Source of the DNA: Knoellia sp. S7-12
GTDB lineage: Bacteria > Actinomycetota > Actinomycetes > Actinomycetales > Dermatophilaceae
Direction: 5' to 3'
NCBI RefSeq assembly: GCF_040518285.1
Contig: NZ_CP155449.1
Coordinates: 248,001-312,000, forward strand
DNA: 64,000 nt
Every line of letters starts with the position of its first letter. Within the stretch, counting starts at the first letter, position 1. A program made the position numbers and the translations under genes. Below, in pieces: positions 52,945 to 59,383 of this stretch. Below the pieces are notes generated by a model. The model ran no database searches. It was not told the DNA's origin and was given only the letters and a program-made list of their open reading frames with translations.

Positions 52945-53337
52945 TCAGCCGCGCCGCTGCTCGACCTCGGAGAGCGCCGCGCGCAGGTCGTCGAGCTCCT
53001 CGGGAGTGGCACCGTCGAGGAAGTGCAGCAGGGTCGCCCGACGATCACTCGCATCCCCGAGCGACGCGCGCATCGTCTCGGCGGTGAGCGACTCGCGCGT
53101 GCCAGCTGGGGTGTAGCGCCAGGCCCGACCATCGCGCTCGCGGGTGACAAGGCCCTTCTTGGACAGGCGGTCGAGCACGGTCATCACCGTCGTGTAGGCG
53201 AGGTTGCGATCAGCGGGCAGTGCCTCGAGCACGTCACGCACGCTCGCACCGTCGGGTCGCCGGGCCGTGGAGTCCCAGAGCTGCTCCATGACGACGCGCT
53301 CGAGATCGCCGAGGCGGGGGGCGGGCGTGGAGGGCAC
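52945..53337 (-). CDS. BlaI/MecI-family winged-helix repressor
   Basis: The product has 130 residues. The winged helix-turn-helix reads LGDLERVVMEQLWDS, RDVLEALPADRNLAYTTVMTVLDRLSKKGLVTRERDGRAWRYTPAG; the C-terminal helices form the dimerisation and cleavage region. It starts 5 bp after the cydC stop, so it is very likely the fifth gene of the cyd operon and may control it. Confidence 0.9.
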   Translation of the reverse strand: MPSTPAPRLGDLERVVMEQLWDSTARRPDGASVRDVLEALPADRNLAYTTVMTVLDRLSKKGLVTRERDGRAWRYTPAGTRESLTAETMRASLGDASDRRATLLHFLDGATPEELDDLRAALSEVEQRRG

Positions 53338-53342
53338 GGGAA

Positions 53343-54959
53343 TCAGTCCTTGCGGGTGAGCGTGAGGTCGAGGAGTTCGTCGACGGCGTCGAGGCCCTCG
53401 TGGCGGTGGCTGACGACGACCACGGTACGCCCCGACGTGGCCGCCCAGACGTCGCGCATGACGCTTGTCGCGGTCGCGTGGTCGAGGTGGGCCACGGGCT
53501 CGTCGAGGAGAACGACAGGTCGTCGCGAGAGGACCGCGCGGGCGAGTGCGAGGCGGGCCCGCTCACCTCCGGAGACGCCACGTCCACCGGAGCCGAGTCG
53601 GGTGTCCAGACCGTGGGGCAACCGGTCGAACCAACTGCCCAGCCCAGAGACCCGCAGGGCCGCAACGAGGTTGCTGTCGCTCGCATCCGGCTGTGCGAGA
53701 ACGAGGTTGGCGCGGACGTCGGCGGCAAACAGATGCGGCTCGTCATCGACGACGGCGAGGAGGTCGCGCACGGCGGCGGCGTCCAGCTCCGTGACGTCGT
53801 GCCCGTCGACGAGGTAGCGCCCCGAGGCGGGGTCGAGGGCCCGTGCGAGGACGGCGAGCAACGTGGACTTGCCCGAACCGTTGGCGCCGACCACGCCGAC
53901 TCGGTGCCCGGGCGGGAGGTCGAGATCGACCGGTCCGACGTCGACCCGACCCTCGACCCAACCTGCCGTGACGCCCTTGAGCCGGAGGTGGGGTGCAGCC
54001 GAGGATGGTTGTCCTGAACCCGTATCGGCAACCGCCGCGGTCTGGTCGAGAAGCGAGTCGACCCGTGAGCGGCTCTGCTCCGCCCGGGCCTGGGCCCGCC
54101 CGGCATCGGCGAGCGGCAGGACGGCGTCAGCCAGAGCCGCAGGCACCACGACGAGGAGTGCGGTCACGGCAGGGGTCAGGTCCGAGCCCGTGGCGACAGC
54201 AGCCATGACGACCGTTGCGGCGCCGGTCAGCGTGAGGACACCGCCCGTGACGAGTGCTCGTCCGCGGCTCTGCCGCCGCAGGGCCCGGGCGAGGTCGGCG
54301 TGCGCCACGTGGAGTCGGTCGAGCACGTCACCGGTTGCACCGATCGCCTGCAATTCCGGGGTATGCCGTGCCACCAGCTCCGCTGCCCGGCTCACCTCTG
54401 CGCGGGCCGCTCCCAGGAGCGGCTGCGCGTCGCGTTCGAGGGCCAGCCCGGCGCGGGAAAGCAGTGCCACGAGCAGCATCCAGACCGCGACGACCAACCC
54501 GGCCATCGGCTCGAGCGCCCCGGTCAGGAGGACGGCGAAGAGCGCCGCGACAGCGGCCGACAGCAACGGAACACGGACGCGCACCTGGGCTTCGACGACG
54601 TCGGTGAGGTCGTCAACCACCCCGCTGAGGACGGCGCTTCGCGAGCGGCGCCCCAGGCGAGCGGGAGTCAGAGGGATGAGGGCGGCATACACCGCAGTGC
54701 GTGCGGACGCGAGGTCCGCGAGCGCGGAGTCGTGAGAACGGAGCCGTTCGAGGTGGCGGAAGAAGGGCCGCGCCATGCCGAAGGCGCGCACTCCGACGAT
54801 CGCGGTGAGCAGGGTGAGGATGACGGGTCGTTCGGCTGCGCGCACGATGAGCCACCCGGAGGTCGCCGTGAGCGCCACGCCGGACGTCAGCGCGAGGCCT
54901 CCCCACACGCCTGCGAGAGCGTTCTGCCGCCTTGCAGTTGAGTGCTCCAGGACAGTCAT
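53343..54959 (-). CDS. cydC: CydC, thiol-reductant ABC exporter subunit
   Basis: The product has 538 residues. Six membrane helices (about 15-300) precede an ATPase: Walker A GANGSGKSTLLAVLARALD, signature VSGGERARLALARAVL, Walker B VVLLDEP. With CydD it exports glutathione-like thiols or cysteine (mycothiol-related in actinobacteria), which assembly of cytochrome bd requires. Overlaps the cydD gene by 4 bp. Confidence 0.9.
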   Translation of the reverse strand: MTVLEHSTARRQNALAGVWGGLALTSGVALTATSGWLIVRAAERPVILTLLTAIVGVRAFGMARPFFRHLERLRSHDSALADLASARTAVYAALIPLTPARLGRRSRSAVLSGVVDDLTDVVEAQVRVRVPLLSAAVAALFAVLLTGALEPMAGLVVAVWMLLVALLSRAGLALERDAQPLLGAARAEVSRAAELVARHTPELQAIGATGDVLDRLHVAHADLARALRRQSRGRALVTGGVLTLTGAATVVMAAVATGSDLTPAVTALLVVVPAALADAVLPLADAGRAQARAEQSRSRVDSLLDQTAAVADTGSGQPSSAAPHLRLKGVTAGWVEGRVDVGPVDLDLPPGHRVGVVGANGSGKSTLLAVLARALDPASGRYLVDGHDVTELDAAAVRDLLAVVDDEPHLFAADVRANLVLAQPDASDSNLVAALRVSGLGSWFDRLPHGLDTRLGSGGRGVSGGERARLALARAVLSRRPVVLLDEPVAHLDHATATSVMRDVWAATSGRTVVVVSHRHEGLDAVDELLDLTLTRKD

Positions 54960-56584
54960 GACCTCACCTCCGCCATCGCGTGACCGAGATGCACGTGCTC
55001 GCCAGCGACCGCGACCAGCGCGGGCGAGTGAGTTGCGACGATGACGCAGCGATCGGCGGCGAGTTCACGGACGAGGTCGATGATCAGCTCGGTGCCCGGC
55101 CGATCGAGGTGGGCAGTCGGCTCGTCGAGCAGGACGACGGGTGCGTTCGAGAGGGCGGCTCTGGCCAACCCGAGGCGCAGCCGCTGGCCGGCCGAGAGGC
55201 CGAAGCCGTCGTCCCCGAGTGGTGTCTCCAGCCCGTCGGGCAACTGGGCGACGAAGGCGTCGAGCCCGACCCGGCGCAACGCTGACCACTGCTGCTGGTC
55301 GGTGAGTTGGGTGTCACTGCCAAGAGTGAGTGCCTCACCTATCGCCCCGTCGGGGAGGAACGGTCGTTGGGTCACGTAGTGCACTCGCCCCGTTGTCACG
55401 CTGCCTGCATTGGGCGTGCGCACCCCAGCGATGAGATCGAGCAAGGTCGACTTCCCGGCGCCCGATTCCCCCGTGACGACAGTCAGCCCGGCTCCTACCG
55501 TGAGCGTCACGCCGACAAGCACCCTCACGTCCGACCCCGGATATTCGTAGCCCACCCCCGCCAGAACGGCCGACCTATTGCGCAATCCGTCGGATCTGCT
55601 CACTGATTGCGCATTTCGTCGGGCCGACGGATTGCGCAACAAGTCCGGGGTTCCGACGGATTGCGCAATAAGTCGGTCGATGGCGGCGGCGCCGTCGGCG
55701 GCCGCGTGGAACTCGGCCCCGACCTTCCGGATCGGCCAATAGGCCTCTGGCGCAAGCAGGATCGCGAGCAGACCGGCATACAGGGTCATGGACCCGTGGG
55801 TGAGGCGAAGGCCCACCGAGACCGCAACGATGGCCACCGAGATCGTCGCGAGCAGCTCGAGCGCCGCCGAGCTGAGGAACGCCAGCCGCAGGGTGCGCAT
55901 CGTGGCCACGCGGTGCTGCTCCGACACGGCCCGCACCACGTCCACCTGCCGTCGGGCCCGACCGAACGCGACGAGCGTCGGCAGGCCACGCATGACGTCA
56001 CCGAAGTGACCGGCGAGCTGCTCGAGGGCTCGCCAGCGGCTCATCGTGTCGTCCTGGGTCGTCCGCCCGATGAGCGCGGCGAAGAGGGGGAGCAGGGGGA
56101 GCGTCACCACGACGATGACGGCACTCAGCGGGTCGACGACGACGAGTGCCACCACGGCGAGGAACGGCACGACGGCACCGGCGACGAGGGCCGGCAGGAA
56201 GCGCGCGGCATACGGCTCAACCGCATTGGCTCCCTGCACGGCGAGGGTCGACGCCTGCTCCGCCTCGGGACGTCCTTCGGCGGGTGCCGCGAGCCAGCGT
56301 TCGAGCAACCGCCGCCGCAGGGCCGAGCTCACTGCGATCGCCGTGGTCGCGCCCAGGCGCTCGACAAGCATCCCCAGCCCAGCCCGCACGAGAAACGCGA
56401 TCACGACCCAACCCGCACTGCGCTGCCAGCTGCCCTGTGCGACAACGTCGGTCACGAGTCGCGCGAGTGCCACGGCGAGGCCGATCGCGGCCGCACCCTG
56501 CAGGGCGGCGACGACGGCCAAGGTGGCCACCGGCGCTCGCGCGGCCGGTACCGCCTGCAGCAGGCGAGGGTCAAAAGGCTTCAT
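54956..56584 (-). CDS. cydD: CydD, thiol-reductant ABC exporter subunit
   Basis: The product has 542 residues. Six helices (about 1-300) precede an ATPase with Walker A TGESGAGKSTLLDLIAGV, signature LSAGQRLRLGLARAAL and Walker B VVLLDEPTAHLD. Between the two domains, residues about 303-338 come from a palindromic DNA repeat cluster rather than the usual linker; the frame is preserved. Partner of CydC. Confidence 0.9.
   Translation of the reverse strand: MKPFDPRLLQAVPAARAPVATLAVVAALQGAAAIGLAVALARLVTDVVAQGSWQRSAGWVVIAFLVRAGLGMLVERLGATTAIAVSSALRRRLLERWLAAPAEGRPEAEQASTLAVQGANAVEPYAARFLPALVAGAVVPFLAVVALVVVDPLSAVIVVVTLPLLPLFAALIGRTTQDDTMSRWRALEQLAGHFGDVMRGLPTLVAFGRARRQVDVVRAVSEQHRVATMRTLRLAFLSSAALELLATISVAIVAVSVGLRLTHGSMTLYAGLLAILLAPEAYWPIRKVGAEFHAAADGAAAIDRLIAQSVGTPDLLRNPSARRNAQSVSRSDGLRNRSAVLAGVGYEYPGSDVRVLVGVTLTVGAGLTVVTGESGAGKSTLLDLIAGVRTPNAGSVTTGRVHYVTQRPFLPDGAIGEALTLGSDTQLTDQQQWSALRRVGLDAFVAQLPDGLETPLGDDGFGLSAGQRLRLGLARAALSNAPVVLLDEPTAHLDRPGTELIIDLVRELAADRCVIVATHSPALVAVAGEHVHLGHAMAEVRS
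55570..55676. repeat. palindromic repeat cluster embedded in cydD
   Basis: Four copies of a roughly 22-bp unit with a TTGCGCAA-type core. The outer two are a 25-bp inverted pair (55570-55594 and 55652-55676, 24 of 25 positions matching); the inner two lie around 55604-55620 and 55623-55646. It encodes the linker between the membrane and ATPase domains of CydD. Confidence 0.85.
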
Positions 56585-56599
56585 CGGTATGCCGTCCGC

Positions 56600-57640
56600 T
56601 CACTTCACGAGCGCGGGTGCGCCCATGTGGTGGGTCGAGAGTCGCCGACGGAAGACCCAGTAGGTGTAGGCCGTGTAGAGCAGGACGATCGGCACGAAGA
56701 CGAGCGCGGCGATCGACATGATCTGCAAGGTCATGGGGGTGCTCGCGGCGTTCTCGATGGTGAGTGAGGTGCCGCCGGAGAGGGTGGTCGGCATGACCGC
56801 CGGGTGGAGGGCGACGAAATAGGCCGCAGCCGTGCCGGCCCACGTCAGTGCCGTGGCGGCGAACGCGAGCAGTTCGCGACCGGCGCGGCTGGCGACGAGA
56901 CCGCCGACGAGTCCTGTGGCCGCGATCACGGTCAGGGCGACGACAGGTGCAGAGCCCTGGGTGCCGACGAGCCACCCGAGCAGTCCGACCGCGAGCACCG
57001 CTGTCGCCAGGCCCGATCGCCAGGCGACCTGGCGGGCCTCGGCTCGCAGGGTCCCATCGGCCTTGAGTGCGAGGAACAACGCGCCGTGGGTCACCGACAG
57101 CGCGACGAAGGTGGCACCTCCCCACAGGCTCGGGACGTTGAGCAGAGTCCCGAGCGACCCGACGAACTCGAAGTCCGCATCGAGAGGCACGCCGCGCACG
57201 ATGTTGGTGAGCGAGAGCCCGACGAGGAAGGGTGCGGCCACGGAGCCGCCAATGATCGCCGCGTCCCAGCGCTGGCGCCAGGTGTCGTCGTCGCGCTTGT
57301 GGCGGTACTCAAGGCCCATGTTGCGCACGATGAGGGCGACGAGGAGGGCCAGCAGTGGCAGATAGAAGGCGGAGAACATCGATGCGTACCAGTGGGGGAA
57401 CGCCGCGAACATCGCTCCGGCTGCCGTGATGAGCCAGACCTCGTTGCCATCCCAGTGCGGGCCGATCGTCGTGAGCATGACGCGGCGTCGCTTGTCGGCC
57501 TCGGCTGCACCGGTGCCGACGTGGGGGCGGCGGCCAAGGACGGGCAACAGGGTGCCGACCCCGAAGTCGAAACCCTCGAGGACGAGGTATCCGGTCCAGA
57601 GCACGCCGATGAGGATGAACCAGATGAAGGGATAGTCCAT
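56600..57640 (-). CDS. cydB: cytochrome bd oxidase subunit II
   Basis: The product has 346 residues and about eight or nine helices. The family start WFILIGVLWTGYLVLEGFDFGVG is present. Subunit II supports heme insertion and quinol oxidation by CydA. It lies 48 bp after the cydA stop and 15 bp before the cydD start. Confidence 0.95.
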   Translation of the reverse strand: MDYPFIWFILIGVLWTGYLVLEGFDFGVGTLLPVLGRRPHVGTGAAEADKRRRVMLTTIGPHWDGNEVWLITAAGAMFAAFPHWYASMFSAFYLPLLALLVALIVRNMGLEYRHKRDDDTWRQRWDAAIIGGSVAAPFLVGLSLTNIVRGVPLDADFEFVGSLGTLLNVPSLWGGATFVALSVTHGALFLALKADGTLRAEARQVAWRSGLATAVLAVGLLGWLVGTQGSAPVVALTVIAATGLVGGLVASRAGRELLAFAATALTWAGTAAAYFVALHPAVMPTTLSGGTSLTIENAASTPMTLQIMSIAALVFVPIVLLYTAYTYWVFRRRLSTHHMGAPALVK

Positions 57641-57688
57641 GTCGAACTCGCCTCTCTCGCAGGGTTGGCGAAGGTTTGGGTCGGAAGG

Positions 57689-59161
57689 TCAGTAGGAGAA
57701 CTGGAGTGGAGCGTCCTCGGCGGGTTCGGACTCCGGTTCGTGGAAGGGCTCGGCACCGTGGGCGACATAGCGCAGGAAGAGACGTACCTCGACGACGGCG
57801 AGCACGGCATACAGGAGGGTGAAGACGGTCATCGACGTCCAGATCTCGGCCACGGACACCGATGGCGAGACGCCTAAGGCGGTCGTCATCAGGCCGTTCA
57901 CGAGCCAGGGTTGCCGGCCGGTCTCGGTGAAGATCCACCCAAAGCTGTTGGCAAAGAGCGGCAAGAGCGGGGCAGCGACCGCCGCCCATACCCACCAACG
58001 CGATGTCGGCGCCCGGCGCGACCCGCGGGTCACCCACAGCAGCAGCGCCGACAGACCCATCGACGCGAAGCCGAGGCCCATCATGAGGCGGAAGGTCCAG
58101 TAGGCGAGTGGCACGTTGGGCATGTAGTCGGCGTCACTGTCGGATGCGACGACTGCCACTTCAGGGCCGTAGGTGCGTTCGATGCCGGCGACCATCTCGG
58201 CATTGCGGGCCTTGATCTCGTTGATGCCCTCGACCGTGCCGTTGGGGTTGCCGGTCGCCATGAACGCGAGGACCTTGGGCACCTTGATGGCGAAGACCTC
58301 TTCGGTGCCGTCGAGCGACCCGATCGTGAGGATCGAGAAGCCGGCGCCGGTCTCGCTCTCGTAGAGCGCCTCGGCCGCAGCCATCTTCATCGGCTGCACC
58401 TCGGTCATGATCTTGCCCTGCACGTCGCCGGTGACAACGACGCCGAGGCTCGCGACGAGGGTGAGAACGGCGCCGAGGCGGGTGGCCTTGCGATACATGG
58501 GGACGTCGGCCGCGTCGCTTGCTCCCGGCTGGGCCGCGCGCCTCCAGAGCCAGACGCCCACACCCATGACGACCGCCCCACCGACCATGTAGGCCGACGT
58601 GATGATGTGCGGGAAGGCCACGAGCTGGACCTTGTTCAGGAGGATCGCGACGAAGTCAGTCATCTCGGCGCGGCCCGACTCGGGGTTGTAGCGGAAGCCG
58701 ACGGGGTTCTGCATGAACGAGTTGGCCGCGAGGATGAAGTAGGCCGAGAGCAACGTCCCCACGTGGACGACCCACATCGTCGCGGCGTGCAGCTTCTCGG
58801 GGATGCGGCCCCACCCGAAGATCCACAAGCCGAGGAAGGTCGACTCGACAAAGAAGGCGAGCAACGCCTCCAGGGCCAAGGGCGCTCCGAAGATGTCGCC
58901 GACGAAGCGCGAGTAGTCCGACCAGTTCATGCCGAACTGGAACTCCTGGACGATGCCGGTGACCAGCCCGAGTGCGAAGTTGATCGTGAAGAGCTTGCCG
59001 AGGAACTTCGTGAGCCGCAGCCACTCGGGCCGACGCGTGCGCACCCACGCGACGTGGGTGACGGCGACGACGAAGGACAGGCCGATCGTGATAGGGACGA
59101 AGAGGAAGTGGTAGACGGTGGTGATCGCGAACTGCCACCGCGCGAGGTCGACGGGGTCCAT
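57689..59161 (-). CDS. cydA: cytochrome bd ubiquinol/menaquinol oxidase subunit I
   Basis: The product has 490 residues. It carries the hemes of cytochrome bd and oxidises quinol with O2. The axial His near residue 18 (VYHFLFVPITIG), the GRQPW motif of the quinol region and the conserved helix-VII Met region are recognisable. The ATG at 59161 follows an AGGAG ribosome site; upstream in-frame codons to 59266 are not favoured. The promoter region contains TACTA/TAGTA half-sites. Confidence 0.95.
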   Translation of the reverse strand: MDPVDLARWQFAITTVYHFLFVPITIGLSFVVAVTHVAWVRTRRPEWLRLTKFLGKLFTINFALGLVTGIVQEFQFGMNWSDYSRFVGDIFGAPLALEALLAFFVESTFLGLWIFGWGRIPEKLHAATMWVVHVGTLLSAYFILAANSFMQNPVGFRYNPESGRAEMTDFVAILLNKVQLVAFPHIITSAYMVGGAVVMGVGVWLWRRAAQPGASDAADVPMYRKATRLGAVLTLVASLGVVVTGDVQGKIMTEVQPMKMAAAEALYESETGAGFSILTIGSLDGTEEVFAIKVPKVLAFMATGNPNGTVEGINEIKARNAEMVAGIERTYGPEVAVVASDSDADYMPNVPLAYWTFRLMMGLGFASMGLSALLLWVTRGSRRAPTSRWWVWAAVAAPLLPLFANSFGWIFTETGRQPWLVNGLMTTALGVSPSVSVAEIWTSMTVFTLLYAVLAVVEVRLFLRYVAHGAEPFHEPESEPAEDAPLQFSY

Positions 59162-59197
59162 GGCTCTCCTGCGGATCGGTTCCCGGATGCGCCGGGT

Positions 59198-59236
59198 TCT
59201 ACTACGACCGATAGTAATACGACGGTGTGTAGTAGA
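59198..59236. promoter_or_regulatory. candidate operator of the cyd operon
   Basis: TCTACTAC (59198-59205) and GTAGTAGA (59229-59236) form an 8-bp inverted repeat 23 bp apart, with a further TAGTA at 59212-59216. This half-site cluster lies 37-75 bp before the cydA ATG. TACnnn/GTAnnn dyads are typical of BlaI/MecI-family repressors, and such a gene is in this operon. Confidence 0.45.
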
Positions 59237-59383
59237 CCAACCGCGGTGAGGGGAGGGCTCCGTCACAAACGGCCCAGATGCTGATGGCCTGCTGAAGAGG
59301 AGGCGCTGAACGCAGCAGATCAGGTCGTTGGGTTCGATCCTCCCGATACGTCCCCTTCAGGCCGCGCGCTGGGATCATCAGTC

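Follow-up and report, generated by a model that had tools for sequence, protein, structure and literature searches.

An in-frame composite palindrome in the cydD linker of Knoellia sp. S7-12, and different palindromes at the same linker in related species

We analyzed a 64,000-nt stretch of the genome of Knoellia sp. S7-12 (the window; positions below refer to it unless stated otherwise). It contains a cyd operon on the minus strand, in the order cydA-cydB-cydD-cydC. ORFs with profile matches identified cydA (57689 to 59266), cydB (56600 to 57640), and cydC, which encodes the partner exporter subunit (53343 to 54959). The cydD ORF (54956 to 56584) encodes 542 amino acids, and its product matched the NCBIfam CydD profile TIGR02857 with 457.9 bits (cut-off, 435). 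Named relatives of this CydD came from Knoellia species and from Janibacter sp. HTCC2649. In one Knoellia genome (G001), CydD-like matches were no stronger than 9.6e-27; cydDC may be absent from this genome or missing from its assembly.

Four copies of a 24-nt unit, CCGACGGATTGCGCAATAAGTCGG, lie in frame in cydD between positions 55570 and 55676. The first-pass annotation had described a 25-bp inverted pair with 24 matching positions and two more copies of the unit here, and all four could be located. The outer 25-nt arms (55570 to 55594 and 55652 to 55676), separated by 57 nt, agree at 24 of 25 positions. Unit A (55653 to 55676, + orientation), the first in the coding direction, is the exact consensus with no mismatches, and unit B (55624 to 55647, +, two mismatches) is a direct repeat of it at a 29-nt step. 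Unit D (55570 to 55593, -, one mismatch) is the inverted partner of A, and unit C (55599 to 55622, -, five mismatches) is an inverted and decayed copy. The 107-nt composite, A-B/C-D, consists of two direct pairs, each with the 29-nt step, that face each other as a long stem-loop. Allowing three mismatches or fewer, a 16-nt segment of the unit matched eight times in the window, six of them in this tract, against 1.31 matches expected. None of 100 shuffles attained eight matches, which rules out chance. The folded RNA of the element reached -76.9 kcal/mol, versus -43.9 for shuffled versions (z -8.4). As a control, a stretch of the cydC linker, which has no strong inverted repeat, gave a z of 0.2.

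The cydD reading frame stays open across the entire element. Five of the six frames of the unit are open, and unit C, third in the coding direction, falls in the closed one. There it has TCA where the consensus would give the stop codon TAA in frame. The same variant is present in a few other copies, so it is no proof of selection. No known RNA family matched positions 53000 to 58000 at gathering score. Collections of plasmids and phages had no match to positions 55560 to 55690, and a plasmid or phage carrier of the element was dropped as a candidate for that reason.

The element encodes residues 303 to 338 of CydD, between the Pfam matches ABC_membrane (residues 23 to 268) and ABC_tran (residues 359 to 491). 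The match to the nearest solved CydD chain ends at residue 306 and restarts at residue 366. In an AlphaFold model of CydD (19 sequences; mean pLDDT, 81), pLDDT fell below 50 only at residues 311 to 334 and at the last three residues, counting segments of three or more residues. The open frame, the Pfam domains, the gap in the solved chain, and the low pLDDT agree with the earlier placement of the element, in frame, in the interdomain linker. The model predicts that this linker between the membrane and ATPase domains is disordered. Aligned CydD proteins of other species lack these linker residues. Relative to CydD of S7-12, the HTCC2649 protein (with another palindrome there) is 3 amino acids shorter and the Soil729 protein (with none) is 12 amino acids shorter. 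Judged by these lengths, the element (about 36 amino acids) is not a clean addition to the sister protein.

The unit is a Knoellia-specific dispersed hairpin repeat. A search of the S7-12 genome, with up to three mismatches, gave 42 strand-hits at 40 places, two of which matched on both strands, so the further copies that the first-pass annotation had proposed looking for do exist. The reversed pattern had no matches. We found the unit in three of nine Knoellia genomes (S7-12 included) and in none of 30 other genomes. An end motif, CGACTKATTGCSC, is present in all nine Knoellia genomes with 21 to 91 matches each (controls, 0). Among 149 genomes of the family it was found in 24, and the 15 of 140 outside Knoellia had one to five matches each, except for one with 30; the reversed motif matched once in each of two genomes. 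A typical copy of the repeat is 65 to 66 nt long and has two 24-nt arms in inverted order around a 17- to 18-nt loop. RAYT-type Y1 transposases were absent from all nine Knoellia genomes, in a search that was positive in 5 of 14 control genomes. Therefore, a REPIN with a RAYT was dropped as a candidate. Two Knoellia genomes have an AbiEi_4-type ORF between inverted arms (L085:1172-2440 in G001 and L084:1179-2431 in G003). The two ORFs are 52% alike, the AbiEi_4 match belongs to the G001 ORF, and an ORF in this position is possible cargo of the repeat. As a candidate mobilizer, it had no relative in the other fetched loci or in the window.

Eighteen inverted pairs of 65 to 66 nt were listed from two genomes. 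All are dispersed copies, none in cydD and three inside other genes. In this set, pairing holds in 95% of arm-to-arm cells. Changes on both sides were found for 9 of 23 pairs, a number that none of 500 shuffles reached and that compares with one to three in slid controls. A 16-copy version, from which L004 and L046 were left out by choice, had 97% of cells paired and the same nine double changes, and the result holds with all 18. Related copies may exceed shuffles without any structure, so these numbers establish that the arms are kept matched and leave the reason aside. Within single units (16 copies), 67% of cells pair without covariation. A hairpin within the unit was therefore dropped as the conserved fold.

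To place the copies, we scored ORFs with a simple codon-bias script rather than a gene caller. This was done for 26 of 27 loci in S7-12, L008 being without a unit under that threshold. Twenty-four are intergenic. A predicted ORF edge is no more than 20 nt away in 22 of them and a predicted stop codon in 20, and the ORFs on either side converge in 13. Such positions are what would be expected of bidirectional transcription terminators that selection had spread at the ends of genes, with the cydD copy being a stray or an attenuator before the ATPase domain. However, a run of at least four T within 12 nt of either end was found at none of the 26 loci, and three T at only 7 of 52 sides. A working terminator inside cydD would also remove the ATPase domain and cydC, and copies sit inside several other genes. 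We consider terminators improbable.

The two intragenic loci in S7-12 are cydD and a gene for a protein with AMP-binding (residues 121 to 330) and PP-binding (residues 486 to 544) matches, in which the element occupies residues 454 to 476. HTCC2649 has 20 loci of this unit family, of which 14 were fetched and 12 scored. Two of the 12 are intragenic: one between AtuA and AtuA_ferredoxin matches and the other in a NIR_SIR protein, beyond its single Pfam match.

We also compared eight intergenic sites of S7-12 for which orthologues were found in HTCC2649, and the repeats turn over between the species. HTCC2649 has the same family at two sites (L015, which contains an IS30, and L027, which is linked through a single flank), a hairpin of another sequence at four (L013, L017, L018, and L020), and no hairpin at two (L012 and L023). 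Soil729 has other hairpins at L012 and L027, none at L013, L018, and L023, and only weak ones at L015 and L017 (L020 was ambiguous). At the intragenic L001 copy, the Soil729 orthologue has no hairpin, and a search for an HTCC2649 orthologue found none. The HTCC2649 orthologues of L017, L018, and L020 (L203 to L205) have a third type of hairpin for that genome, located at gene ends, which mostly starts with CGACTTCGTGCCC and has an inner GGACA.

HTCC2649 (G006) also has two 1,320-bp stretches at unrelated sites (C1:1573373-1574692 and C1:3402127-3403446; L038 and L039) that differ by one base. They are alike exactly out to the ends of the outer 24-nt arms, and each has an IS30-family transposase inside. 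The simplest reading is that a loaded hairpin moved as a unit, with conversion between two separately loaded hairpins as a possible alternative. We dropped the idea that these 1.3-kb copies are an autonomous parent insertion sequence (IS). Their inner gene is of the IS30 family, and at one of the two sites the S7-12 orthologue is a hairpin without any insert, which makes an IS inside a hairpin the simpler account. Inspection by eye revealed no target-site duplications at the two copies or in the orthologous-site alignments. The first-pass annotation had proposed that the cydD repeat is of mobile origin. Presence and absence between species, swapping at orthologous sites, and the arm-bounded 1,320-bp copies lend this indirect support; no transposition was seen and no mobilizer was found.

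The first-pass annotation did not notice that this linker holds different palindromes in other species. We examined 90 cydD loci from 149 genomes searched, namely the best 30 and a further 60 taken from the remaining listed matches. One genome contributed two loci, and a K. remsis locus was included although its match is split over two rows. Defining a strong inverted repeat as one with a score of 16 or more, we found them in 16 of the 90 linkers, in 18.0 kb of linker sequence, and three more linkers scored 14 or 15. The rest of cydD, seven-fold longer at 128.7 kb, had two, the flanks (216 kb) had seven, and none of 3,600 shuffled linkers reached 16. By eye, the 16 palindromes fall into about 10 to 12 stem families. 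Related genomes share ancestry, so 16 linkers are not 16 events. The S7-12 linker and four other Knoellia linkers have end motifs in common, and the G024 family may be related to that of G042/G131. K. sinensis, K. locipacati, K. flava, and K. subterranea have related but different stems; the last three are probable assignments of G008, G003, and G005, respectively, by identity of the linker. In the sister species HTCC2649, the linker contains a different dispersed palindrome, the core of which matched 43 times in its genome (control, 1) and zero to two times in four other genomes tested, two of which had as many control matches.

A joint query with nine linker palindromes from 12 other genomes (G146, G131, and G139 were queried with the G042 segment) showed, among the matches listed, that the linker's family has additional copies in 9 of the 12. 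There were tens in G015, many in G024 and G148, several in G042, G146, G131, G139, and G144, and one in G064. None were among the matches listed for the linker segments of G117, G127, and G118. A family around CGAACGCCGCGTTCGG is in the CydD linkers of two genera (L136, L146, L159, and L162; G042, G146, G131, and G139) and has other copies in each genome.

These dispersed copies bear on whether the linker palindromes might have been made in place by template switching, or descend from one ancient hairpin kept matched by it, with the dispersed copies being coincidental. Template switching can hold arms matched without selection, so arm matching alone is compatible with it, and four Knoellia species have the outer arm motif or a close variant in common in their linkers. 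However, S7-12, HTCC2649, and 9 of the 12 other genomes (among the matches listed) carry the linker's family elsewhere, and the S7-12 copy is at a different offset and frame from those in the other Knoellia linkers. The dispersed copies largely refute the explanation, and we regard it as very improbable.

The homologous cydC linker tells a different story from that of cydD, with a strong inverted repeat in 1 of 87 (Fisher P = 1.5e-4 versus cydD). That one (L158:2922-3045, G064) has 30-nt arms, and the cydD linker of G064 has one too. The strong cydD excess would fit an mRNA stem selected at the membrane/ATPase boundary. Such a stem would slow the ribosome and give the membrane half time to insert ahead of synthesis of the ATPase half, and any palindrome would serve. 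Very stable stems at this boundary in different species (five cydD linkers folded, z -7.0 to -11.1) and the compensatory changes that keep arms paired in dispersed copies are consistent with this. Against it, 74 of the 90 cydD linkers, including those of Soil729 and K. remsis, have no repeat scoring 16 or more, the homologous cydC boundary almost never has a hairpin, and the covariation was measured on dispersed copies, none in cydD. A selected stem is possible but unlikely.

Another possibility is that hairpins are exchanged for hairpins. Putative machinery would recognize any stem-loop slot, here the places beside stop codons and the CydD linker, and swap in the lineage's current palindrome, so that the slot is inherited and the sequence replaced. 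The four of eight orthologous sites with a hairpin of another sequence in HTCC2649 point this way. So does the length of the Knoellia cydD linkers: six with a palindrome stay at 126 to 147 nt although their palindromes differ. The two linkers that lack a strong one, those of Soil729 and K. remsis, are shorter (81 nt in one and 111 nt in the other). The single dispersed copy read from K. sinensis has its inner stem in common with the cydD copy of that species. In K. locipacati (G008), the one dispersed copy that was read and the cydD copy have no inner stem in common, and nothing occupies two of the eight orthologous sites. We consider hairpin exchange possible, and doubtful overall.

In HTCC2649, none of 20 further copies of the linker family that were examined is inside an ORF, and four overlap an ORF edge. 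We placed 20 loci of other families from G015, G024, G148, and G042 on ORFs (two, in which the script could not pick out an inverted repeat clearly, were scored at a default position). Four are inside ORFs: in PrmC between two domain matches, in a NuoL-like protein past the last match, and in two C-terminal tails. In G024, one family is read in the same frame, as a like peptide, in CydD, PrmC, and the NuoL-like protein (L148, L232, and L234). All eight intragenic copies placed on Pfam matches, that in S7-12 cydD included, are outside matched domains, four of them between two domains, although short Pfam matches leave much of some proteins uncovered and "outside domains" is therefore weak for the NIR_SIR and NuoL-like proteins.

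Our preferred explanation, and probably the correct one, is that these are mobile hairpins of the REP/RPE type, specific to each lineage, whose copies persist in coding sequence within flexible linkers or tails. The cydD tract would be a composite copy, two facing dimers with 29-nt spacing, of the dispersed hairpin of about 65 nt. Families would spread within each genome as nonautonomous palindromic DNA, mainly into short gaps beside stop codons, and a copy landing in coding DNA would be kept only if read through in frame inside a flexible interdomain linker or tail. If the CydD linker is exceptionally permissive, different families could have occupied it repeatedly in the Intrasporangiaceae. 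It has the appearance of a site at which spreading repeats can safely land time after time. We infer that copies transpose, that their insertions are nearly neutral, and that tolerance causes the recurrence. Tolerance accounts for survival in linkers. However, tolerance alone predicts that the cydC linker, which has a like architecture, should be occupied as often, so the excess in CydD is what it explains least.

Several known systems resemble these repeats. Di Nocera et al. (2013; PMC3733652) described GTAG and CGTC REPs beside gene ends and in facing dimers, and indicated that intragenic REPs are possible in flexible linkers. They also noted that RPE-4 and RPE-6 are CGTC REPs, that CGTC REPs have no transposase, and that two Xanthomonas species have different REPs at about the same site in recB. 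A search of that paper for the term "actinobacter" had no matches. Rickettsia RPEs are dispersed palindromes in frame in unrelated protein genes, with several families and composite copies (PMC3733652 and PMC10969869), and a conserved peptide is reported for them (PMC10969869). The first-pass annotation had likened the cydD repeat to RPEs. The likeness in behavior held up, with in-frame copies in unrelated genes (cydD and the AMP-binding/PP-binding gene in S7-12, the AtuA-type and NIR_SIR genes in HTCC2649). The likeness is one of behavior, and kinship with RPE families is no more than a possibility. Unlike RPEs, the Knoellia repeats are in another host, their scored copies are mostly intergenic, and different families recur at one protein site across genera.

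REPs and REPINs of the GTAG, RAYT-associated type are likewise short palindromes that occur as facing pairs next to stop codons and where genes converge, in lineage-specific families with some intragenic copies, and the Knoellia unit also pairs in inverted order. However, its consensus lacks a GTAG end, and Knoellia lacks the Y1 transposase. CGTC REPs share with it the lack of a known dedicated transposase, the facing dimers, and the intragenic copies (PMC3733652), but the 8- to 9-bp stem, 4- to 5-nt loop, and unpaired CGTC that define them there are not features of the Knoellia unit, whose paired arms are two units rather than halves of one. IS elements that target REPs (PMC1525189) resemble the IS30-family gene inside two HTCC2649 hairpins, although the loaded hairpin there is two near-identical whole copies. 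The copies that bear IS30 end exactly at the arms, as a MITE parent with the same ends would, but the IS seems to have inserted into a pre-existing hairpin. Coding palindromes in Nematomorpha mitochondria are another case of stems kept within genes (PMC6649704).

No paper on palindromic repeats of Knoellia was evident from titles and the start of abstracts, and none was found on palindromes in the CydD linker. As far as the listed literature reaches, intragenic dispersed palindromes are a known kind, and different families recurring at one linker have not been described. Earlier examples of intragenic palindromes, from Rickettsia and several REP-rich bacteria, are mostly scattered. The present case, a single protein site with about 10 to 12 palindrome families in one actinobacterial family, amounts to a natural replicate experiment on how repeats enter proteins. 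It makes testable whether such linkers simply tolerate insertions, are targets for them, or benefit from an mRNA hairpin located where two domains meet, and it exposes dispersed hairpin families in Actinomycetota, in a genus without a RAYT-type (Y1) transposase.
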